In this document: positions 9,584 through 26,925 of the stretch, one piece after another
How positions within the stretch are numbered: the first letter of the stretch is position 1
Layout: every line of letters starts with the position of its first letter
Position numbers and translations under genes: made by a program
Notes under the pieces: model-generated
Told to the model about the DNA's origin: nothing
Seen by the model: the letters and a program-made list of their open reading frames with translations, nothing else
Database searches by the model: none
Virus record (IMG/VR): IMGVR_UViG_3300036781_000437
Span: 1-43,713 of that record
Strand: one strand, 5' to 3'
Length of the DNA stretch: 43,713 bases
Source of the DNA: a virus

Positions 9584-10804
9584 CTAGTAGCCCGGCGGGA
9601 ACTCGTTGTAGTGCGCCCTGGCGGCGGCCTCCTCCTCGGGAGAGGGCTCCGGCGGCGCCTGCGGCTCCGTGGAGGAGCTCGTGCGCTTCGCCAGGCCCGC
9701 CAGCCTGTCGAGGAGCTGGACGGCCTCCGGGCGGCTCAGGGACTCCCGCAGCGGACTCCAGTGGAGCACGAGCTCCGAGTCGTAGGCGCCGAGCTCCAGC
9801 ACGAGGTCCTCGCCCGCCTGGCCGCGCATCTTCGCGACGGCGTCGTAGAGGTGCCGCTTCTCGATCGCGCCGTTGTTGACGAGCTGGACGACGAGGATGT
9901 CGGCCTTCGTCTTCATCGCCTTGCTCGCCTTCGCGATCTGCGCGAGCTCGGGCGGCTCCGGCGGCGGCGGGGCGTCGGGCTCGGGCGGCTCGGGCTCGGG
10001 CGGCACATCGCCGCCCTCCACGTCGTCAGGCCCGAACGCCGCCGCCCGCCTGCCCTGTTGAGCCTGGGGCGGCGAGCCGACGGCGGTCAGGGCCTGCTCG
10101 ATCGTCGGACTGCGCCTGGCCGCGGGCACGAAGCCCGCCGGCGGAAGCGCCCGCGAGTCGTCGGGCTGCGCGGGCGCCGCCAGCGCCAGGTAGCCGACGC
10201 CGAGGTCGAGCGTCGGGACGACGAAGCGGACGACCTGGCCGTCCTTGACGCCGCGACGCTGGTCAAGTCGAAGCTTGCTCGGGACGAAGGAGGAGCCGCC
10301 GCGGGCCTCCATCAGCGCGAACATCGTCGGCAGCTCGTGCGCCGCGTTCGCCCCGCGCGTGATCAGGCGCCAGCCCAGGACGGTGTCCAGCTCGGGCAGA
10401 GCGACGACGAGCCTTGTGTACAGATCGCACTTGTCTTGCCCCTCCGCGTTGCAGATGCAAGGGCCTCCGGTCAGCTCCTCGTCGACACCGTCGCAGAGGC
10501 GCATCCGCTTGGTCGCGCCCTCCCAGAGCTCGTAAGTCTGCCGCAGGGAGTAGCTCGGCATCACGAGCACCGGCAGCTCCTCGGCCTCGGTGTAGAGCTG
10601 CCACTCCTCGCCCGTCGGCGACTGCCACTTGGACACGTCGCCGCCGTAGAGCGAGGCGGCCTGCTCGAGGAGCTGGCGCCGCGGCGATGTGAGCCGGAAG
10701 GCCTCCAGCTTGCGGCCGGGCGCCTTCGGCTGCTTCTCTCCTCCTGCGCGGATCGCGCCGACGATGGTCAGGCGGCGTTGGAGCATGATGATCGCTTCGG
10801 GCAC
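9584..10804 (-). CDS. phiC31 Gp3-like recombination directionality factor
   Basis: A 406-residue protein. The N-terminal half (about 10-220) matches the Gp3-like family. It shows 'LQRRLTIVGAIRAGG', 'FRLTSPRRQLLEQAASLYGG' with 'DVSKWQSPTGEEWQLYTE', a Cys cluster (RLCDG...GPCIC...DKC) and later 'SKLRLDQRRGVKDGQVVRFV'. In phiC31, Gp3 binds the serine integrase and switches it from integration to excision; this phage also encodes a large serine integrase at 17147. The C-terminal half is an acidic Pro-rich linker (about 255-290) and a helical domain, making it longer than Gp3 (about 244 residues). Start GTG 10804 has the site GAGAGGAGGCGATC. 10805-10898 upstream shows no gene. Confidence 0.75.
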   Translation of the reverse strand: MPEAIIMLQRRLTIVGAIRAGGEKQPKAPGRKLEAFRLTSPRRQLLEQAASLYGGDVSKWQSPTGEEWQLYTEAEELPVLVMPSYSLRQTYELWEGATKRMRLCDGVDEELTGGPCICNAEGQDKCDLYTRLVVALPELDTVLGWRLITRGANAAHELPTMFALMEARGGSSFVPSKLRLDQRRGVKDGQVVRFVVPTLDLGVGYLALAAPAQPDDSRALPPAGFVPAARRSPTIEQALTAVGSPPQAQQGRRAAAFGPDDVEGGDVPPEPEPPEPDAPPPPEPPELAQIAKASKAMKTKADILVVQLVNNGAIEKRHLYDAVAKMRGQAGEDLVLELGAYDSELVLHWSPLRESLSRPEAVQLLDRLAGLAKRTSSSTEPQAPPEPSPEEEAAARAHYNEFPPGY

Positions 10805-10898
10805 GATCGCCTCCTCTCGTAGTTGGGCGAACCGAGCCGAGCCCCGCTCTGCCATGACGAGCGCTGCCCAGCAAGACCCGGCTCTGGTACGCCCTGCT

Positions 10899-11402
10899 TC
10901 ACGTCGAACGTTCTGCCAGCGTCTCGACTGCGGCCGCGACGAGCTCGACAGCCCCGCGCAGCTCCTGGTACTGCTCGTACCGGGCCTGCCAGCCGAGGAG
11001 CTCGCGCTCGGCCCTCACGACGATCTGGTCGGCCAACTCGGGCGAGGCCCAGACGACCCGTTCGGACACGTACGCCCGCTCGGCCCTCCCTTGCCCTCGC
11101 AGGGTGACGTTGTGGAAGGCCCGCGTGCGCTGCTCGCCGCTCGCGGTGAAGCGGATGACGGCGATCGAGCGCAGGATGCCTCGGGCCTGCGCCAGTCGGT
11201 GCTCGTGGGCCGCCCTCGCATCGTCCCAGTCGAAGTAGCGGTGGAGCGGCGAGCGCGAGGACTGCGCCATCTTGACGATGGCCTCGGGGTCGATCGGCCC
11301 GTCGCGGAAGCGCTTGTCGAGGAGCTCCCCGATGCGCTGCGCCTCCTCGTCGGTGTGCAAACCCGAGACGCCCGCGACGACGCGGTACTCAGTCGAGCTC
11401 AC
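10899..11402 (-). CDS. Conserved phage hypothetical protein
   Basis: A 167-residue protein. GTG 11402 lies in a GTGA overlap with the upstream stop. The mid-region 'YFDWDDARAAHEHRLAQARG' then 'ILRSIAVIRF' resembles phage proteins usually found in recombination/replication gene blocks, without a defined function. The C-terminus is a long helix (ERELLGWQARYEQYQELRGA). The large in-frame extension upstream belongs to antisense of the neighbour and was rejected. It follows the 227-residue protein and probably works in the same complex or pathway; that is inference. Confidence 0.6.
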   Translation of the reverse strand: MSSTEYRVVAGVSGLHTDEEAQRIGELLDKRFRDGPIDPEAIVKMAQSSRSPLHRYFDWDDARAAHEHRLAQARGILRSIAVIRFTASGEQRTRAFHNVTLRGQGRAERAYVSERVVWASPELADQIVVRAERELLGWQARYEQYQELRGAVELVAAAVETLAERST

Positions 11403-12082
11403 GAGAGCTCCTCCACGCTCTTCACGCGAGCACGGCCGAAGCTCCCGGACTTGTTCTTCGGGGCGGACGGGCGCCATTCGCCGATGCCGCCGCAGAAGAG
11501 GCCGAGGTCCATGATCGCGACCACCTGCTCGAGCGAGACGGTGCGGGCGTTGAAGCTGACGAAGAGCTCGCACGACCAGTCGGTGAACTCGGGCCGGTAC
11601 ACGGGCTGGGTCGGGTTGCGGCCGATGTCGGTGCGCAGGACGACCCCGGAGAAGTCGAGCACCGGGTCGCGGTCGACGAAGAGCCAGCCGGTCGCCTTCG
11701 TCTTCGGGATGCGCTTGTCGTCGAGCTGCGACACGCCGTAGAGGAACGCGTGCTTGAACGCCGAGGCCGGGTGGAAGTACTTGCCCGGCTTCCAGTCGAT
11801 CAGCTCCTCCTTGCCGGGGACGATGTACGCGGCGGCAACCCACTCCTCGTCGGGCACGCGGGCCGTCTTCTGCTGCATCGCCTTGCCGGTCTGCTTGCCC
11901 TCGATCTGTGCGAGTGCCTTCTTCGACCACTGGTGCTGGATCAGCCCCGAGATGCCGACGATGTTGAGGATCGCCTGGCGCATCTCCAGCTCGGGGATCG
12001 CGATCTCGCGAATGTCTTCGACGACGGCGGGCTTCTCGGTCTTCGCCGCCGCCTTGGTCTTCGGTACTGCGGTCGTAGCCAT
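11399..12082 (-). CDS. Conserved phage protein, possible recombination partner
   Basis: A 227-residue protein with an Ala/Lys-rich leader (1-25) and a compact domain. Distinctive stretches are 'LIQHQWSKKALAQIEGKQTG', 'WKPGKYFHPASAFKHAFLYG', 'YRPEFTDWSCELFVSFNART' and 'GLFCGGIGEWRPSAPKNKSG'. The last part recalls a conserved phage family I know only as hypothetical, often encoded near exonuclease or recombinase genes. Start ATG is preceded by AGCAGGAGGAGCGTAACCAAC. It is separated from the exonuclease block by the pentamer tract. A strand-annealing or single-strand-binding partner of the exonuclease is a position-based guess only. Confidence 0.6.
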   Translation of the reverse strand: MATTAVPKTKAAAKTEKPAVVEDIREIAIPELEMRQAILNIVGISGLIQHQWSKKALAQIEGKQTGKAMQQKTARVPDEEWVAAAYIVPGKEELIDWKPGKYFHPASAFKHAFLYGVSQLDDKRIPKTKATGWLFVDRDPVLDFSGVVLRTDIGRNPTQPVYRPEFTDWSCELFVSFNARTVSLEQVVAIMDLGLFCGGIGEWRPSAPKNKSGSFGRARVKSVEELS

Positions 12083-12113
12083 GTTGGTTACGCTCCTCCT
12101 GCTAGTTGGGTGG

Positions 12114-12827
12114 TTACACGGGCGGGGCCGTTTGAGCGACCCCGCCCGAGCTTGTAGGTGCCTGCCGTGCCTCGCCCAGCCACGCGCCGCCTTGCGCTGC
12201 CGTGCCGCCCCTCACCGTGCCTGCCATGCCAAGCCCTGACCGGCTCCGCGGTGGGTTGCCGCGTCGTGTGCTGCCCTGTCGAGTCGTGCCGTGCCCGCCT
12301 TGCCTTGCCGGGCTCTGTCGAGCCCGGAGCGGAAGCGCCATGCCGAGCCCGCCGTGCCGAGTCTCGCCAAGCCAAGCCTTGCCCCGCCACGCCGTACCCT
12401 GCCCAGCCTTGCCCGCCCAGTCTTGCCATGCCGCACCCAGCCACGCCCGGCCGCACCACGCCAGGCCCGACCGCGACCTGACCGGCGGTGCCCCGCCCTG
12501 ACGGGCCTTGCGCGTCCATGCCCGCCGTTCCAAGCCGAACCGCGCCCGGACACGCCGTGCCGAGTCGCGCCACGCCACGCCGGACTCTGCCGCGCCTGGA
12601 GTCGCCATGCCCGCCTTGCCTCGCCTGGCTGCGCCAAGCCAAGCCGCGCCCGGAGACGCCGTGCCGAGCCCTGACGCGCCCGCCCTGCTTCGCCGCGCCG
12701 AGCTCTGTCCCGCTGGGGCGTGCTCTGACACGCCTGGAAATGCCGTGCCCGCCTCGCTGTGCAGTGATACGCCCTGCCCAACCCGGGCACGCCCGGACGA
12801 GCCGGGACTAGCCTTGCCTGGCGTCAC
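12114..12827 (-). CDS. Low-complexity open frame across the pentamer tract
   Basis: A 237-codon frame that starts at GTG 12827 in a GTGA overlap with the upstream stop, the same coupling used by real genes here, and ends 31 bases before the next gene start. The predicted product is Ala/Gly/Arg/Trp-rich with a five-residue rhythm (examples: AWCGRAWLGAAWQDW, GTAWRGKAW). Because the DNA repeats every 5 bp, all three leftward frames are open over most of the tract and give similar peptides, so an open frame alone is weak evidence. It could be a true repetitive protein or a chance opening across a non-coding element. Confidence 0.25.
   Translation of the reverse strand: MTPGKASPGSSGRARVGQGVSLHSEAGTAFPGVSEHAPAGQSSARRSRAGASGLGTASPGAAWLGAARRGKAGMATPGAAESGVAWRDSARRVRARFGLERRAWTRKARQGGAPPVRSRSGLAWCGRAWLGAAWQDWAGKAGQGTAWRGKAWLGETRHGGLGMALPLRARQSPARQGGHGTTRQGSTRRGNPPRSRSGLGMAGTVRGGTAAQGGAWLGEARQAPTSSGGVAQTAPPV
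12119..12148 (-). terminator. GC-rich hairpin at the downstream end of the tract
   Basis: CGGGCGGGG (12119-12127) pairs perfectly with CCCCGCCCG (12140-12148) around a 12-base loop. It lies where leftward transcripts leave the pentamer tract, 37 bases before the next ATG. There is no U-run beyond GTGTAACC. It may be a terminator or attenuator, or a 3' end for a tract-encoded RNA. Confidence 0.5.
12161..12815. repeat. Degenerate pentanucleotide tract (GGCNN on -, NNGCC on +)
   Basis: About 650 bp can be read largely as 5-bp units ending GCC on +. In 12366-12415, nine of ten consecutive units begin GCC. Typical runs are GCCAA-GCCAA-GCCTT and GCCAC-GCCGT. Longer blocks recur, such as CGCCGTGCCGAG (12350, 12554, 12657 areas) and ATGCCCGCC (12528 and 12607 areas), so the tract grew by duplication of larger pieces as well. 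An internal perfect hairpin CCGGGCTC-tgtc-GAGCCCGG is at 12308-12327. It lies between two leftward recombination-region genes. Function unknown. Confidence 0.8.
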
Positions 12828-13051
12828 AGCATCGCCTCCTGTCCGAGGAGCCCGGCCTTCGCCGAGCTCACGCAGGCTGCGTGCGCGAACTCAGGCCGCG
12901 TCTCGCGTAGGCGAATGTCCGAGCCGCCGTGCTTGCCCGAGGCCCGGACGCCCGCGATGTGCTGCCAGCCGACAACGCGCTGCCAGGTGGACGAGGCGAG
13001 CGGGTTGACGGGCTCGCCGCAGAAGGGGCACGTCGCCTCGACCCCGGCCAT
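12824..13051 (-). CDS. Small zinc-binding phage protein
   Basis: A 75-residue protein from ATG 13051 (a GTG at 13054 is also possible). It begins with a zinc knuckle, CPFCGEPVNP at about 8-17. Then come 'TWQRVVGWQHIAG', 'GGSDIRLRE' and 'FAHAACVSS', so two Cys, one His and one Cys could bind zinc. The pattern CxxCGxPV...WxRVxGWE...GG...I.LRE...AHxxC is one I recall in many actinophage hypothetical proteins, often in recombination blocks. It overlaps the upstream stop and its own stop overlaps the GTG of the tract frame. Confidence 0.65.
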   Translation of the reverse strand: MAGVEATCPFCGEPVNPLASSTWQRVVGWQHIAGVRASGKHGGSDIRLRETRPEFAHAACVSSAKAGLLGQEAML

Positions 13052-13380
13052 CACTCCTCCTCGGCGCCGTCGAAGAAGACGTCCGAGACGACGAGGCTCT
13101 TCGTCTCCACGATCGCATCGACGTAGCCCTCGGAGTCGCGGCGGTGGCGCTTGCGCGAGCCCGCGACGTGGCAGGTGACGACGAGCTCGGCCTCCTCGCC
13201 CGCCCGCAGGCCGTTGTAGTACTTCACCTGCTGGGCGTTCGTGCGGTCGAGCTCGAGCGAGCCCGAGAACGCGAGCTTGAGCACGCTCGGGTCGGCCTCG
13301 TCCAGGACAACCGCGATCCTCGGCACTTCAAACAGGCGCCCGTCGCCGGGGCTCTGGTCTTCCACTGCGGCCACGCTCAT
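13051..13380 (-). CDS. Conserved hypothetical protein next to exonuclease
   Basis: A 109-residue, strand-rich protein (RIAVVLDEADPSVLKLAFSG, AELVVTCHVAGSRKRHRR, VDAIVETKSLVVSDVFF). The start ATG overlaps the exonuclease stop by ATGA, so it is translated with the nuclease. Mixed beta strands and an acidic end (GAEEE) would suit a small OB-type or inhibitor/accessory fold, but I do not recognise a family. Likely part of the same recombination unit. Confidence 0.6.
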   Translation of the reverse strand: MSVAAVEDQSPGDGRLFEVPRIAVVLDEADPSVLKLAFSGSLELDRTNAQQVKYYNGLRAGEEAELVVTCHVAGSRKRHRRDSEGYVDAIVETKSLVVSDVFFDGAEEE

Positions 13381-14213
13381 GCCTCCTCCTCGTTGGTAGT
13401 GGGCAGCTCCAGCGGCGCCCCGAACACGTGTCGACTGACCTCGCTCTGCCAGCGGGCCGCCTGCTGTACGTGCAGGAACGCCCGCCAGACCCTGTCGTCG
13501 ATCGCCACCGGCACGGCCAGGAAGTCGAAGGGCGAGATGACGATGCAGAGGGCGCCGTCCACCTTCGGCAGCTCCTCGTGCGTCTGGCTCTGGTCGTAGA
13601 GGTAGTAGCGCCCGCGGTTGGAGTAGCGCTGCTCGGCGATCACGCCCACCTCGGTGCAGCGCGAGTAGGCGCAGAGCTGGAGCGCCGTCTCCGGCCACGG
13701 CGGGCGGGCCTTCTCGCCGCCCGGCGGGTGCTCGGTCGTCTTGTAGTCGACGAGCAGCCGGTAGCCGCCGAGCTCGATGATCCCGTCGAGCGTTCCGGCG
13801 TAGCGGCGCTCGATGTTGTAGACCGGCGCCTCGGCGAGCAGGAAGGTCGGCCGGAACTTCTCGATCCAGCGCCGCCCCTGCTCCACGAAGGGCGCGATCT
13901 GCGGCTCGACGCGCGGCTCGGCCCCGAGCGCGATCTCCTCCAGCGCCTTGTGAATGTCGGTGCCGCGAACCTTCGCCTTCTCCGACTTCTTCCAGCGCTG
14001 GTCGGCGAGCCACTTGATCGCGCCCTCGCGGTCGCCGTCGCGGAGCATCGCGTCGACCGTGCCGCGCTTGTCGACCCCGGCGGTCGCGACCTGGTTGACG
14101 ATCCAGTTGATCAGCCCCGGCCCGGTGCCGAGCCCCATCCCGATCAGGGTCGTCACGCTCCAGAGCTGGAGCGGCGCAGCCTGCGGCAGCGGCTCCATCA
14201 GCGGCGAGCTCAC
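13377..14213 (-). CDS. PD-(D/E)XK exonuclease (RecB/Cas4-like)
   Basis: A 278-residue nuclease from GTG 14213 (GTGA overlap upstream). Catalytic features are in order: 'RGTDIHKALEE' with His 88, 'YAGTLDGIIEL' with Asp 143, 'YRLLVDYKTTE' with Asp 156 and Lys 158, and the downstream 'TALQLCAYSRCTEVG' helix with the Q-x3-Y motif. This is the RecB-type nuclease order used by phage exonucleases that resect double-strand ends for annealing-type recombination. It heads the leftward group with two small proteins and, after the pentamer tract, the 227-residue protein. The long N-terminal in-frame extension to 14261 was rejected for the coupled GTG. Confidence 0.8.
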   Translation of the reverse strand: MSSPLMEPLPQAAPLQLWSVTTLIGMGLGTGPGLINWIVNQVATAGVDKRGTVDAMLRDGDREGAIKWLADQRWKKSEKAKVRGTDIHKALEEIALGAEPRVEPQIAPFVEQGRRWIEKFRPTFLLAEAPVYNIERRYAGTLDGIIELGGYRLLVDYKTTEHPPGGEKARPPWPETALQLCAYSRCTEVGVIAEQRYSNRGRYYLYDQSQTHEELPKVDGALCIVISPFDFLAVPVAIDDRVWRAFLHVQQAARWQSEVSRHVFGAPLELPTTNEEEA

Positions 14214-14383
14214 CGCGCCGCCCTCGGCGGCTTCTGGTCGAAGCAGCCCGGACAGAGCCACGGGCCTCGCGACCGAGCTGCGCCGCAGTGCAGCCGCGCT
14301 CCGCAGTCCGAGCAGGCCCGGAAGCCGCGGTAGGCGGCCCAGGCCTTCCAGGCCTGGAGCGCTTGCCGTTCAAGCGTCGTCAC
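14210..14383 (-). CDS. Small zinc-ribbon protein
   Basis: A 57-residue protein that starts at GTG 14383, overlapping the methyltransferase stop (GTGA), and ends in a GTGA overlap with the exonuclease. An N-terminal helix (LERQALQAWKAWAAYRG) precedes two Cys knuckles: CSDCGARLHCG and CPGCFDQKP. This is a compact zinc ribbon. The function is unknown; the position between methyltransferase and nuclease suggests DNA metabolism. Confidence 0.6.
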   Translation of the reverse strand: MTTLERQALQAWKAWAAYRGFRACSDCGARLHCGAARSRGPWLCPGCFDQKPPRAAR

Positions 14384-15328
14384 GTCGTCACCTCCGAGAA
14401 GTCGAGAAGCCAGCGGCCCGCGGCCGTGGCGCACTGCACCTGGACGGCGTTGCCGAGCATCCGCAGCCGGGCCGTCCGCCGGTTGCCGGTCGTCCAGCCG
14501 TGCGGGAGGCCGAGCATCCACTCGACGAACTCGGGCATCAGGCCTCCTCGATCGTCAGTTGGCCTGGGAGCGGGGCGGCCGAGCTCTCGCTCCCAGCGGC
14601 GGATGGCGGGCTCGTAGCGGCCCCAGTCGACCGCCGCGGGGTCGTACTCCCGCCCGTGCGGAAGAGGTCGGAGAGCGAGACGCCCGGGTTCGCCGCCGAG
14701 CCCGGCAGGTTGCGGCTCCCGGCCGACTTCGCATCCCCTGCCGTCGGCGTCGGCAGGAGCGCCAGCGCCTCCTCCAGGTGCGGGCCGCCGTCCGCGTTCG
14801 CGCTGCGGTACTGGCCGCCCCGGTCCGCGTAGCTCGCCGTCGGCGTCGGCAAGAGCTCCGGCGATGAAGACTCTCCAGCGGAGGTGAGGCGCTCCGACGT
14901 CGACAGCTCGCAGGCGGTCGTACCGCCACCGGTAGCCGAGTAGGGCCAGGTCACCGACCACATCTCCGATGAGGCCGGAAGCAATGAGGCCTGGGACGTT
15001 CTCCAGGAGCACGAGTCGAGGTCGAAGTACGCGAAGGCATCGCGCGATCTCAGGCCAGAGCCAGCGCTCGTCATCCGCGCCGCGTCGGGCTCCGGCCTGG
15101 GAGGCGGGCTGGCAGGGGAAGCCTGCGACCACAAACGTCGGCGGCGATGCCTCGCCGCTCCCAGTCGACGGCCCGCAGGTCGCCGAGGTTGGGGACGTCG
15201 GGCCAGTGGCGGGCGAGGATGAGCGAGCAGGCGCGATCGTTCTCGGCCTGGGCGACGAAGCTCCAGCCGAGGAGCTCGAGGCCGAGGTCGAGCCCGCCGC
15301 AGCCCGAGCAGAGGGAGAGGGCTCGCAC
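14380..15328 (-). pseudogene. DNA cytosine-C5 methyltransferase with three one-base frame breaks
   Basis: The C5 motifs are all present but in different frames. Frame A from GTG 15328 has motif I 'LSLCSGCGGLDLGLELLGW' and ends 'RRGIAADV'. Frame B has 'VVAGFPCQPAS' (motif IV, catalytic Cys), 'LVLLENVPGLI' (motif VI), 'DVGAPHLRWRVFIAG' (motif VIII), and later 'MLGLPHGW' and 'MLGNAVQVQ' (motif X). Frame C holds the variable target-recognition part, 'LLPTPTAGDAKSAGSRN' and 'PGVSLSDLFRTGG'. Switches fall at 15133-15135, about 14858-14861 and 14649-14651. Third-position GC follows these frames, so coding was under selection until recently. It would make 5mC, the substrate for the TET-like enzyme at 42111. 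Either decaying or mis-assembled. Confidence 0.75.
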
Positions 15329-15329
15329 C

Positions 15330-15758
15330 TCACCGCCAGACCCCGAAGTCGTTGCGCAGCGTCTCGACGCGAACGCTCGCGTGCGGCTGGGAGCCGTAGA
15401 GCTTGCGCACGTGCCAGGAGGCAACCTGCGAGTCGTCGCGTACGACGACGCCGGTCATCGCGTCGCCGAGCGCCCGCTGGAGCTTGTCGAGGTCGGGCTT
15501 CGCGCTGTGCCAGATCGGAGCGCTGTCCTTGAGACGCTCGGCGTTGCGGCCGCTGCCGAAGTGGCCCTTCGGCCGCGGGAAGAAGAAGTCGACGATCACG
15601 TTCACCGGGCCGTCGACCGGGCCGTTCGCCATCACCTCGGCGGCGGCCGCCGCGACGCTCTCCCGCCAGCTCTTCACGTGCGGGTTCGCCTCGGCGCCCC
15701 ACGGCATCTTGGAGCCCTGCGGCACGGGCACGCCGGGCACGGTGAAGGTCAGCTCCAC
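15330..15758 (-). CDS. RusA-like Holliday junction resolvase
   Basis: A 142-residue protein with the RusA order: an N-terminal strand 'LTFTVPGVPVPQGSKMPWG', a central 'FFFPRPKGHFGSGRNAERL', then 'KPDLDKLQRALGDAM' and 'GVVVRDDSQVASWHVRKLYG', with the conserved Asp residues that bind metal. RusA enzymes are dimeric nucleases that cut four-way DNA junctions and are common in phage early regions, where they clear branched replication or recombination intermediates before packaging. ATG 15758; its first 10 bases overlap the upstream gene. Length is typical for the family. Confidence 0.85.
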   Translation of the reverse strand: MELTFTVPGVPVPQGSKMPWGAEANPHVKSWRESVAAAAAEVMANGPVDGPVNVIVDFFFPRPKGHFGSGRNAERLKDSAPIWHSAKPDLDKLQRALGDAMTGVVVRDDSQVASWHVRKLYGSQPHASVRVETLRNDFGVWR

Positions 15759-16452: not shown

Positions 16453-16818
16453 TCATTGCAGGCAGCCCCAGTAGCCACCAAGGCCGAGCCCGTACTGGGC
16501 GACGCGCATCTGCACGAGCGGCGGCGCCATCCAGGCGTGTGGGTAGCGGGCAGAGAGGCCGAGCGCTCGCGCCCAGGCCCGCCAGGTCGAGGCGGCGAAG
16601 CCGACGCCTCCCTCGTACTCGGTTCCCTCGTTCGGTCGGTGCCTCGCGCCCCAGTCCCAGAGCGCCGGGCCACCGCCTCCCGTCTCGCAGGAGCCGACTC
16701 GCATCCAGAACTGGATCTGTGCCCTGGTGAGCTCGGCCGAAGCTGGCGGCGCCGTCGCGAAGAGCAGCGCGGTCGCCGCGATGACTCCGAGGAGCCACCC
16801 GTGCAGGTGGGTCAGCAT
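16453..16818 (-). CDS. Secreted Rpf/transglycosylase-like muralytic protein
   Basis: A 121-residue protein with a clean signal peptide: 'LLGVIAATALLFATAPPASA' (9-28) with an Ala-x-Ala cleavage site. The mature part follows the resuscitation-promoting-factor fold: 'RVGSCETGGG' with the candidate catalytic Glu, 'YEGGVGFAASTWRAWA' for the Rpf YxGGLQFxxxTW box, and 'APPLVQMRVAQYGL' then 'GGYWGCL' at the end. Rpf enzymes cut peptidoglycan glycan strands and wake dormant actinobacteria. The gene has a perfect AAGGAGGTCGCG site and is first in the leftward early operon beside the integrase promoter, away from the endolysin. It might serve lysis, entry or lysogen physiology. Confidence 0.7.
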   Translation of the reverse strand: MLTHLHGWLLGVIAATALLFATAPPASAELTRAQIQFWMRVGSCETGGGGPALWDWGARHRPNEGTEYEGGVGFAASTWRAWARALGLSARYPHAWMAPPLVQMRVAQYGLGLGGYWGCLQ

Positions 16819-16838
16819 CGCGACCTCCTTGCGTCCAG

Positions 16839-16888
16839 GTGGGAGCGCCCGGGTGCCGAGGGGGGTCCAAGGGGCCGGGCGCTCCCAC
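16839..16888 (-). promoter_or_regulatory. 14-bp stem-loop just upstream of the Rpf-like gene
   Basis: GTGGGAGCGCCCGG (16839-16852) and CCGGGCGCTCCCAC (16875-16888) pair perfectly around 22 bases. In the leftward RNA this stem ends about 20 bases before the Rpf-like ATG and just ahead of its ribosome site. A regulator of translation or early termination is inferred; on DNA it could be an operator. Confidence 0.6.
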
Positions 16889-16905
16889 GTTGAGGCGGGG
16901 AGGAG

Positions 16906-16968
16906 GCCACGGGCACAGCGTCGGAGTCCCGTGGCTGCCGGTTTGCAGCCCACCGCGGAGACAGCCAC
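16906..16968. other. Overlapping inverted repeats in the integrase/Rpf gap; candidate attP region
   Basis: GCCACGGG (16906-16913) pairs with CCCGTGGC (16928-16935), but the same GTGGC also begins GTGGCTG (16931-16937), which pairs with CAGCCAC (16962-16968). The two stems exclude each other. The 38-bp symmetric element 16931-16968 is of a size and place (directly upstream of a serine integrase) that would suit attP. No core could be proved. The gap 16819-17146 otherwise holds no gene. Confidence 0.4.
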
Positions 16969-17030
16969 ACGTTGCAGGCCGCCTCCGAGCTGCATGTCTA
17001 CGCCGGGCCGGACTCCTCCCCACGCACAGC

Positions 17031-17055
17031 GAAGGCCGCCGGAGGGGCGGCCTTC
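17031..17055. terminator. Hairpin upstream of integrase promoter
   Basis: GAAGGCCGCC (17031-17040) and GGCGGCCTTC (17046-17055) form a 10-bp perfect stem with a 5-base loop. The + side continues GGGCTTCTAC, a weak pyrimidine tail. It would insulate the integrase promoter from upstream transcription, or act in the leader of the divergent Rpf operon. Confidence 0.55.
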
Positions 17056-17104
17056 GGGCTTCTACAGGCTGACGGGCTTTAGCGCTCGGCGCTGTTGCGC
17101 CCGC

Positions 17105-17110
17105 TATAAT
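17105..17110 (+). promoter_or_regulatory. Integrase promoter -10 (TATAAT)
   Basis: A perfect TATAAT in a GC-rich region, 37 bases before the integrase ATG and followed by AAGGAGGCGACC. No good -35 at 16-18 bp is visible, so an activator may be needed. This is the best -10 match noticed in the window. Confidence 0.6.
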
Positions 17111-17146
17111 AGAGCCTCCAAGAGAGAAGCAACCAAGGAGGCGACC

Positions 17147-18529
17147 ATGCAAGGCACCGAACCGAAGAGCTCGAGCAGGCGGCGAGCCGTCATCTACGTC
17201 CGCGTCAGCCGCAAGGGCAAGCGCGGCGGCGACAGCTACATCACCGAGGACGTGCAGGTACAGACCTGCGAGGCCTACGCGAAGGGGAAGCGCATCCGCG
17301 TCGTCGGCACCTTCACCGACGTCAACCGCTCGGGCAAGAACGCGGCCCGGCCGGGCCTCCAGGAGGCGCTCGGGATGCTGGAGCGCGGCGAGGCGGACAC
17401 GCTGATCGTCGCCCGGCTCTCGCGCTTCGCTCGCTCGGTCAAGGACACCGCGATCCTGCTGGACGAGATGCAGGGCTGGGGCGCTTCGCTCGTCGCCTGC
17501 GACATCGACATCGACACGAGCACGCCGATCGGCAAGCTCGTCCGCCAGCTCCTCGCGGCCTTCGCCGAGCTGGAGCTGGAGCTCGCCCGGGAGAAGTGGG
17601 AGGAGGCTCGCTCGCACGCCGAAGACCGCGGCGTCTACCTGCGCAAGGCGCCTCCCGGCTACCGCAAGAACGGCGGCCGGGAGCTCGTCCGCGACGAGGC
17701 CGTCGCGCCGCTCGTGGAGGCGCTCTTCGCCGACCGGGCGGCGGGCGTCTCCTGGGCCGAGCTGCTCCGGCGCTGGGAGAGGGGCGGCGGCCCGAAGATC
17801 AGTCGGCAGGGCCTGACGACGATCGTCGGCAACCGCGAGTACCTCGGCGACCCGCACGAGGCGATCGTCACCGTCGAGCAGTTCGACGCGGCGCAGGCCG
17901 TGAAGGCGCCGCGGCCGTGGCGCAGTCGGAACGGCTCGCTCCTCGCGGGCGTGCTCGTCTGCTCGGTCAGCGGCGAGCCGATGACCTCGGCGGGCGCAGA
18001 CCCGCGGCGCGGCCGGAGCCTCTACCGCTGTCAGCCGGGCGCCTGCAAGGGGCACCGCCAGACGGTCACCGCGGAGCTCGTCGACCGCTGCGTCGAGGAG
18101 CAGCTCCTCGCCTGGGCGGGCGAGGTCACGCTGGAGGGCACGGCCAACGGGGAGGGCGGGCTGATCGCCGCCGCCCGCGAGCGGGAGTCCGCCGAGGCCG
18201 AGCTGGCCGCCTACGTCATCCATGCCGCAGCCTTGGATGCCAAGGTGTTCCAGCTCGGACTCGACGCCCGGCAGGCCCGCGTCGACGAAGCCGTCGATGC
18301 AGAGGCCCGGCTCAGGTCTGAGCGCCGGGTAGGGAACGTGCGCGTCCGGCTCGCCGAGGTCTGGCCGGAGCTCTCGACCGAGGAGCGCCGCCAGCTCCTG
18401 ATGCAGGCCGTTGAGCGAGTCGAGGTCAAGCCCTCAACCCGCCGCGGCCTCGGCAGCTACACGACCGAGGAGCAGCGCCAGGACGCGATCTGCGAGCGCC
18501 TCCGGGTCGTCTTCCGCTCGGACGTCTGA
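17147..18529 (+). CDS. int: Large serine recombinase (phage integrase)
   Basis: A 460-residue recombinase. The N-terminal catalytic domain (about 12-150) has 'VIYVRVSRKG' with the nucleophile Ser 21, 'LIVARLSRFARSVKD', and the later Arg-containing 'PIGKLVRQLLAAFAELELEL' E-helix. The recombinase domain follows (about 155-260, 'KAPPGYRKNGG...GLTTIVGNREYLGDP'), then a zinc-ribbon region (about 265-305) and a coiled coil (about 340-400). The zinc ribbon is atypical: the first knuckle reads CSVSG where CxxCG is normal, while later Cys remain (YRCQPGACKG). It catalyses attP x attB integration; excision would need the Gp3-like factor at 9584. The last 96 bases overlap the convergent gene at 18434. 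Confidence 0.92.
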   Translation: MQGTEPKSSSRRRAVIYVRVSRKGKRGGDSYITEDVQVQTCEAYAKGKRIRVVGTFTDVNRSGKNAARPGLQEALGMLERGEADTLIVARLSRFARSVKDTAILLDEMQGWGASLVACDIDIDTSTPIGKLVRQLLAAFAELELELAREKWEEARSHAEDRGVYLRKAPPGYRKNGGRELVRDEAVAPLVEALFADRAAGVSWAELLRRWERGGGPKISRQGLTTIVGNREYLGDPHEAIVTVEQFDAAQAVKAPRPWRSRNGSLLAGVLVCSVSGEPMTSAGADPRRGRSLYRCQPGACKGHRQTVTAELVDRCVEEQLLAWAGEVTLEGTANGEGGLIAAARERESAEAELAAYVIHAAALDAKVFQLGLDARQARVDEAVDAEARLRSERRVGNVRVRLAEVWPELSTEERRQLLMQAVERVEVKPSTRRGLGSYTTEEQRQDAICERLRVVFRSDV

Positions 18530-25497: not shown

Positions 25498-26925
25498 CTA
25501 AGCGAGTCGGATCGGCTGGATCGCCGCGTAGCGGTTCTGCGAGGTCGACGCGACGTCGGTGTAGAGGGCGAGTGTCATCGTGCCCGCGGTCAGCACCTTG
25601 CCGACCCCCGTCGTGGTCAGGTTCGCCCACCCCGCGATCCCGGCCTGGAGCTGCTGCCACTCGGAGTCGAGAGCTCCGTCGTGCCAGCCGGAGACGCCGA
25701 CCGTGCCCTGCCCCTGACGGTTGACGAGCGCCTGGCCCCAGAAGTAGTAGGCGCCGTTGTAGGGGATCGTGAGGGCGGGGAAGTAGGAGGCCCAGCCGCC
25801 GGGCATCCCGCCCGAGCCGGGGTCGTAGCTCTCGGAGCGGGTGCCGCCGATGAACATCCACTTCTCGGCGAAGCCCGACGAGGCGACGTAGCGCATGTGC
25901 CAGGCGAAGCTCGGCGAGGCGAGGGCGCTCACGAGGATCACTTCCTGCCCATCGACCGGGCTGGCGGGGAGCGTGGTCGAGACGGGGATCGGCGGGACGT
26001 CGGCCCGGGTGATCGCCGACCAGACCGCGGCGCCGCCGACGCCCTTCACCCACTGCCCGTTGACGACCGGCGTCGGGACGCCTGCGCCGGGCGTACCCTG
26101 CGGGCCTTGAGCTCCCGTCAGGCCGGTGTCGCCCTTCGGGCCTTGCGAGCCGGTTGCGCCCTGCGGCCCCTGCGCCCCGGTGGCGCCGGGATCGCCCTTG
26201 AGGCCCTGCGGGCCTTGTGAGCCTGTCGCGCCCGGATCGCCCTTGAGGCCCTGCGGCCCCTGCGTCCCGGTCGCGCCCGGATCGCCCTTCGCACCCTGCG
26301 GCCCCTGAGCGCCCGTCGAGCCGGTGTCGCCCTTGACGCCCTGCGGGCCTTGCGGGCCGGGGACGGTCGAGTCGGCGCCAGTCGCGCCGGTCGCGCCTTG
26401 CGGGCCTACGGCTCCCTGCGGGCCTTGCGAGCCCTGCGCCCCGGTCGAGCCGGTGTCGCCCTTGACGCCCTGCGGTCCCGCCGGGCCGGTGTTGCCGGGA
26501 ACGCCTTGCGTGCCCGCTGGCCCCTGCGGGCCGGGGCCGCCCTGCGTGCCCTGCGCACCCGGATCGCCCTTCGGGCCGGGGCTGCCGGTTGCACCCGGAT
26601 CGCCCTTGACGCCTTGCGGGCCTTCGGGGCCTTGCGGGCCGGGTGGGCCGGGCTCGCCGCCCGTCGCGTAGACGGGAGCAGCCGAGAGCACCCACGGCGT
26701 CCCGTCCTCCTCGGAGAGCAGGAGGAGCACCTCATCGCCCTTGGTCGGAGTGCAGTTGCCGGGCGCCCAGTGGCACGGACCCCAGACCTGGCGGTCGCCG
26801 TCGAAGGCGCCGACCGTGACGAAGAGCTCGTCGCCGGAGCTCGCGGGTGTGTTGGCGACCGTCGCCCGGACAGCCGACACGGGCGGGTCGGGGTGCAGGA
26901 GGTAGTCGGAGAGGGTCGAGCTCAT
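25498..26925 (-). CDS. Collagen-repeat tail protein with OB-like N-terminus (spike candidate)
   Basis: A 475-residue protein. Residues 1-80 form a strand-rich domain ([20 protein letters not shown], then [20 protein letters not shown]) like the OB-fold of gpV-type spikes. Residues about 87-285 are uninterrupted Gly-X-Y collagen repeats rich in PQG, KGD and ATG triplets. The C-terminal 180 residues form a strand-rich head. It sits between the hub gene and the W-like gene, where P2-type phages encode the spike. Collagen helices act as stiff trimeric shafts. It may therefore be the central spike or a fibre. ATG 26925 overlaps the hub stop by ATGA. Confidence 0.75.

Follow-up and report, generated by a model that had tools for sequence, protein, structure and literature searches.

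A punctuated pentamer tract next to a Vipr homolog in a viral genome: very probably a VIPR guide-RNA array

VIPR systems described so far and the window locus

In the available text of a 2026 preprint, VIPR is described chiefly in a coliphage and in a Pseudomonas prophage (PMC13142463). Its protein component, Vipr, is small and RAMP-like; its guide RNAs alternate GGY with NN and, when reading DNA, pass over one base for each dinucleotide (PMC13142463). For SUSP1, the same text reports that Vipr coats the guide, its thumbs masking the constant bases and displaying the variable two. It gives vrRNAs a size of 9-16 repeats, reports variant consensus motifs for other VIPR types and also refers, in the main text, to 'staggered arrays with overlapping vrRNAs' (PMC13142463).

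We analysed a viral genome of 43,713 nucleotides (IMG/VR record IMGVR_UViG_3300036781_000437, hereafter the window), in which a tract of five-base units adjoins the gene for a 227-aa protein. We conclude that this tract is very probably a VIPR array of guide RNAs (vrRNAs), carried by a temperate phage whose host is probably an actinobacterium. Since VIPR has already been described in the 2026 preprint (PMC13142463), we regard the locus as a further example of a known system and not as a new kind.

Like SUSP1 (type II; PMC13142463, PDB 36pp), the window is a phage genome encoding a Vipr homolog with a G-rich loop and a Cas7 fold, with sense-strand GGY/NN guide repeats beside vipr and a small gene after it. 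The four vrRNAs of SUSP1, however, are separate and each ends in a structured tail, whereas the window has nine head-to-tail guides with a GGCR phase slip between them, and its accessory gene is unlike SUSP1 vap1. VIPR-like loci that are not so annotated are also present in Cheoctovirus phages (Quico, Donkeykong, Saal and others), in the Gordonia phages Pipp, UmaThurman and ODay, and in the cyanophage Cy-LDV1. These share with the window the same Vipr clade (27-36% identity over most of the length), the same accessory family and GGCA-punctuated arrays. However, their units are more regular than those of the window, the Cheoctovirus arrays are shorter (192-345 bp), and the order differs in the Gordonia phages, whose array separates vipr from the accessory gene instead of preceding vipr as in the window.

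The predicted fold of the 227-aa protein is also that of the Class 1 CRISPR-Cas backbone (Cas7/Csm3; Z 12.4 with Csm3). Class 1 systems nevertheless have repeats and spacers together with other cas genes, none of which were seen here, and the VIPR guide code is non-contiguous. Another VIPR type has hammerhead-interspersed arrays, unlike the window array: no Rfam family, hammerhead ribozymes included, matched 11900-13100 up to E 1.

Array anatomy and the Vipr protein

A preliminary description of this DNA had placed a tract of five-base units at 12114-12827, and the computed periodicity bears this out. Lag-5 self-identity was 0.501 over 12141-12815, compared with 0.323 ± 0.017 in dinucleotide-preserving shuffles (about 11 standard deviations), and by this measure the tract is the most strongly 5-periodic 650-base stretch of the whole window. 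Its useful part is nevertheless confined to 12163-12818, since 12114-12162 is a tail that carries a 12-bp hairpin and falls outside the array (Table 1). No U run follows the hairpin, and the ATG of vipr lies about 36 bases beyond it, behind AGGAGGA. No structured tail was recognised between the guides of the window array, the single hairpin standing after the last one.

Read on the minus strand from 12818 to 12163, the array consists of nine pentamer runs, each closed by a four-base unit. The 124 pentamers (12818 to 12167; runs of 13, 13, 13, 17, 21, 12, 10, 14 and 11 units) have the consensus GGC-NN, with exact GGY in 79 (64%) and C or T as the third base in 121; the last two bases take all four letters and vary freely. 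The closing tetramers are GGCG (seven) and GGCA (two), and each moves the phase by one base. Set against the published 9-16 repeats, guides 4 and 5 are longer, at 17 and 21 units, and the other seven range from 10 to 14.

The larger duplicated blocks that had also been described on the tract proved to be weak (TRF scores 62-73), the repeats other than pentamers being imperfect ones of 20-29 bp. The element CTCGGCACGGCG is repeated in guides 3, 4 and 6 (window 12530-12680 and 12350-12370, minus strand), and guides 3 and 4 have the five dinucleotides TC AC GT CG GC in common. The recurrence of CTCGGCACGGCG may mean either that part of a guide was duplicated or that the element is constant. A search with the sigma-70 consensus gave no promoter-like site for the array.

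Table 1. Features of the array region and its flanking genes, in window coordinates
Feature	Coordinates	Strand	Basis
vrRNA (guide RNA) array, nine guides, GGC-NN pentamers and GGCR tetramers	12163..12818	-	unit parsing, periodicity
Guide 1, 13 units, closing GGCG at 12750-12753	12754..12818	-	unit parsing
Guide 2, 13 units, closing GGCG	12685..12749	-	unit parsing
Guide 3, 13 units, closing GGCG	12616..12680	-	unit parsing
Guide 4, 17 units, closing GGCG	12527..12611	-	unit parsing
Guide 5, 21 units, closing GGCG; may be two guides	12418..12522	-	unit parsing
Guide 6, 12 units, closing GGCG; most regular, 11/12 GGY	12354..12413	-	unit parsing
Guide 7, 10 units, closing GGCG	12300..12349	-	unit parsing
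Guide 8, 14 units, closing GGCA	12226..12295	-	unit parsing
Guide 9, 11 units, closing GGCA	12167..12221	-	unit parsing
12-bp hairpin directly 3' of last guide; candidate vrRNA tail or transcript end	12119..12148	-	fold
vipr, 227 aa, Cas7/RAMP-fold protein with G-rich loop (GGIGEWRPSAPKNKSGSFGR)	11399..12082	-	profile, predicted structure
Candidate vap (accessory) gene, 165 aa, weak winged-helix resemblance	10899..11396	-	homology, predicted structure
Small upstream gene, 75 aa, CPFC...H...HAAC Cys/His motifs	12824..13051	-	ORF, motifs
PD-(D/E)XK phage exonuclease (PHROG 298), neighbour gene	13377..14261	-	profile annotation

By sequence and predicted structure, the 227-aa protein is identified as Vipr. 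Combined with 55 relatives from IMG/VR loci into a profile, the window protein matched PDB 36pp ('SUSP1 Vipr protein') with E 9.6e-44, the next chain following at 0.43. The window sequence alone reached E 1.2e-4 against the same entry, and BLASTP of SUSP1 Vipr against window Vipr gave 34% across the C-terminal 65 aa. The AF2 model (pLDDT 89.4) has a single alpha/beta core, which among solved structures most resembles the Csm3/Cas7 subunits of CRISPR type III (Z 12.4, rmsd 2.8 over 144 residues), and shows the one RRM core and G-loop, without a second RRM, by which Vipr proteins are recognised; the conserved residues are G195, G199, G201, R204 and G216. A search for relatives with window Vipr alone gave no close ones, and no Vipr was found on plasmids at E 1e-3.

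Array-vipr linkage and alternative readings

Searching with the tract alone (blastn) retrieved Cheoctovirus mycobacteriophages and one cyanophage, and searching with the 227-aa protein (tblastn) retrieved those same phages together with Gordonia phages, a Pseudomonas phage and Felix-O1-like phages. A GG-rich 5-periodic tract was present beside the gene in all nine phages checked by protein homology, with GG on the sense strand of the gene. SUSP1 has a 5-periodic GG tract too, a weaker one, and there the gene matching the window family is flanked by intergenic regions with such repeats. Neither vipr nor an array is found in Che8, Tweety and Fruitloop, which belong to the same genus (Cheoctovirus); on inspection, the GG-periodic spots of Tweety, Fruitloop and Brujita proved not to be arrays.

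The linkage was also seen in IMG/VR when loci were sought by DNA pattern, (GCCNN)x8, with no protein reference, which gave at least 120 loci. Among the matches listed, Vipr is encoded in 85 of 120 loci, always within 862 bp of the match, and the repeat (GGC) is on the vipr sense strand in 83 of these 85; control loci from the same collections, taken with unrelated patterns, encode Vipr in 0 of 46 cases. The pattern loci without Vipr include stretches with the array near an end. Boundaries of the form GGCN followed by GG[CT] number 157 in 41 loci of the fetched set (L001-L131), 146 of them with A, and their spacings, nearly always 4 mod 5, are mostly 39, 44, 49, 54, 59 and 64 nt, equal to one tetramer and 7-12 pentamers. 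The window array has the same punctuated format, with G replacing A at most boundaries. Together with the window, these loci show that long punctuated guide arrays of the VIPR kind are common in viral contigs, and they include those of well-known Mycobacterium smegmatis phage isolates, in which they are annotated as hypothetical proteins or not at all.

Two of the annotated loci are worth recording. The hypothetical protein gp48 of Donkeykong (L001:4956-5342) is the guide array itself, and gp54 of Gorge (L125:3812-5029), annotated as a 405-aa fusion with the accessory protein, has vipr out of frame before the G-rich loop. Since the frame is lost at this point, Gorge Vipr may be broken, although the Gorge array is intact. 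Furthermore, the NN directly before the mark at GGCA boundaries is AT in 31 of 157 cases, possibly a constant 3' end of the guides.

The tract had also been proposed to encode a 237-aa Ala/Gly/Arg low-complexity protein, robust to frameshifts through its 5-base period. An ORF with a GTG start overlapping the upstream stop does cover the tract, and the Donkeykong tract carries an annotation as gene 48, but in Quico no gene is annotated there. The claim that all three leftward frames are open holds for the long ORFs (237, 192 and 184 aa, one in each frame) and not for the 657-base array, which has 0, 1 and 1 stops; such openness is expected from the GGCNN composition, since resampling these units into new arrays usually leaves one or two frames open. 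The reported GTGA overlap arises from the stop codon of the 75-aa upstream gene. Among eleven Cheoctovirus arrays flanked by near-identical genes, the differences consist of single pentamers and of whole guides with 4-base ends, the lengths (192, 232, 240, 246, 251 and 345 bp) represent every residue mod 3, and most arrays contain stops in at least one frame; in the parsing of these arrays, the first guide of some is misparsed owing to six-base units. Because the arrays of relatives gain and lose 4- and 5-base steps, take all residues mod 3 and contain stops, the reading frame is not kept and we do not regard the tract as a protein gene, a translated repetitive protein being very improbable. 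Of the suggested structured non-coding RNA, we retain the non-coding RNA and discard the structure, as shuffled sequences fold just as well as the tract (z 0.15). No tRNA was found, and a CRISPR array was rejected, given that the tract has no long identical direct repeats with unique spacers, only pentamers and weak imperfect repeats.

A role at the DNA level, either as a recombination-promoting, Chi-like or protein-binding tract acting with the adjacent exonuclease or as a replication block, found no support. The exonuclease gene does lie about 0.6 kb upstream of the tract, and in Cy-LDV1 bet and exo are also within a few kb. However, the partner conserved across phages is vipr (85 of 120 loci among the matches listed), the tract in mycobacteriophages adjoins antirepressor and excisionase genes, and the sense-strand bias relative to vipr (83 of 85) suggests an RNA. 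Relatives without the tract, named in the preliminary description as the refuting case, do exist (Che8, Tweety and Fruitloop), but vipr is absent there too. We therefore give the recombination reading almost no credence. A decaying VIPR array, with degenerate units that are now partly or wholly non-functional, is a more serious alternative, though an unlikely one. The window array is indeed more degenerate than that of Quico, since exact GGY is found in 64% of units only and the remaining 36% depart from it, compared with near-regular units in Quico and Donkeykong, and no targets were found for the window guides searched (1-6 and 8). Against decay, the third base is a pyrimidine in 121 of 124 units, the punctuation is intact in nine of nine guides, vipr and the accessory gene are both open, and variant consensus motifs occur in other VIPR types according to the available preprint text (PMC13142463).

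Returning to the VIPR array as the preferred reading, our data show the array anatomy, the homology and fold of Vipr, the gene linkage, guide turnover and one significant decoded target in a close sister system, while transcription, processing, binding, silencing and the targets of the window phage are inferred. If the tract works as a guide array, it would be transcribed leftward together with the genes, as nine guides end to end, delimited by a one-base phase slip (GGCR in place of GGCNN). Vipr, from the gene just downstream, would coat each guide as a small Cas7-like protein, and its thumbs would mask the constant GGC of each unit and display the two variable bases, as in the SUSP1 mechanism. 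The dinucleotides would then pair with one target DNA strand, with one base skipped between them, usually the codon wobble base, and binding would silence the gene of a competing phage. The 165-aa neighbour would be the accessory protein (Vap).

Guide decoding, targets and gene context

Guides were decoded by the published one-base-skip rule, in which dinucleotides are read with one base skipped between them. Exact seeds of 8 or 9 dinucleotides yielded no target, either for window guides 1, 3, 4, 5, 6 and 8 in IMG/VR or for window guide 2 in bacterial genomes: beyond the seed, every match agreed with the guide no more than expected by chance. No self-target was found within the window. Comparing all guides of the fetched arrays with the 1.1 Mb of fetched loci revealed no clear difference between skip rules.

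One significant decoded target was found in a close sister system, that of Quico. Read with the one-base skip, and with no other skip, its guide 2 (AA TT AT TT TT AT GC CC TC AT) agrees with the Che8 tape-measure gene in 19 of 20 bases. The same tape-measure site in Squirty, Wachhund and Minnie also matches at 19 of 20, and across the four phages the site varies at the skipped bases only, which at the Che8 target are the codon wobble bases as counted from the gene start. Quico's own orthologous site, instead, matches at 14 of 20. When the order of dinucleotides was shuffled inside the guides, 26 of 20,551 sets matched as well (p ~0.0013); as the search for this target covered 0.42 Mb of phage DNA and several skip values, a p of about 0.001 is good, not overwhelming. 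In addition, the guide dinucleotides of all arrays fit codon positions 1-2 best (KL 0.139 bits vs 0.169 and 0.396), a weak but independent sign in support of the decoding. The match of Quico guide 2, which hits Che8 and three other phages and spares Quico, opens natural VIPR targets to direct testing, since suitable phages and a laboratory host already exist.

A bolder proposal can be made, which we put forward tentatively and consider rather doubtful as a whole: that the one-base phase slip (GGCR then GGC) is the sole mark between guides, an undescribed format in which a long transcript is parsed by Vipr itself, that the accessory gene is a new vap type, and that the arrays aim at late structural genes of VIPR-less sibling phages. 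We do not claim the format as new, because the available text of the preprint mentions 'staggered arrays with overlapping vrRNAs' (PMC13142463).

The 165-aa family occurs in 33 phage records (27 Mycobacterium, 5 Gordonia and 1 cyanophage), which are the carriers of this Vipr clade; among the matches listed, it is present in 25 of the 85 Vipr-bearing pattern loci and never without vipr. No similarity of the 165-aa protein to SUSP1 vap1 was detected. Its model has a pLDDT of 90.8, with weak structural matches confined to winged-helix entries (Z up to 5.7), so DNA binding is a guess, and the protein is perhaps a DNA-binding accessory (Vap).

The contig also carries genes for a large serine integrase, a Gp3-like directionality factor, tail sheath, tail-fibre and terminase. 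Judging by the integrase and the directionality factor, the phage is temperate, of the phiC31 integrase kind. Since Streptomyces phages have the terminases closest to that of the contig (about 30% identity), the host is likely an actinobacterium. The Gp3-like recombination directionality factor (9584-10855, minus strand) directly follows the accessory gene, and the serine integrase (16727-18529, plus strand) lies further right. A C-5 cytosine methyltransferase is split across two frames (14380-15702 and 15071-15424, minus strand), with the N-terminal motif in one and the remainder in the other, which may be a frameshift, a sequencing error or a programmed event. Finally, a collagen-like tail fibre (25498-26925, minus strand) contains 45/90-bp repeats.
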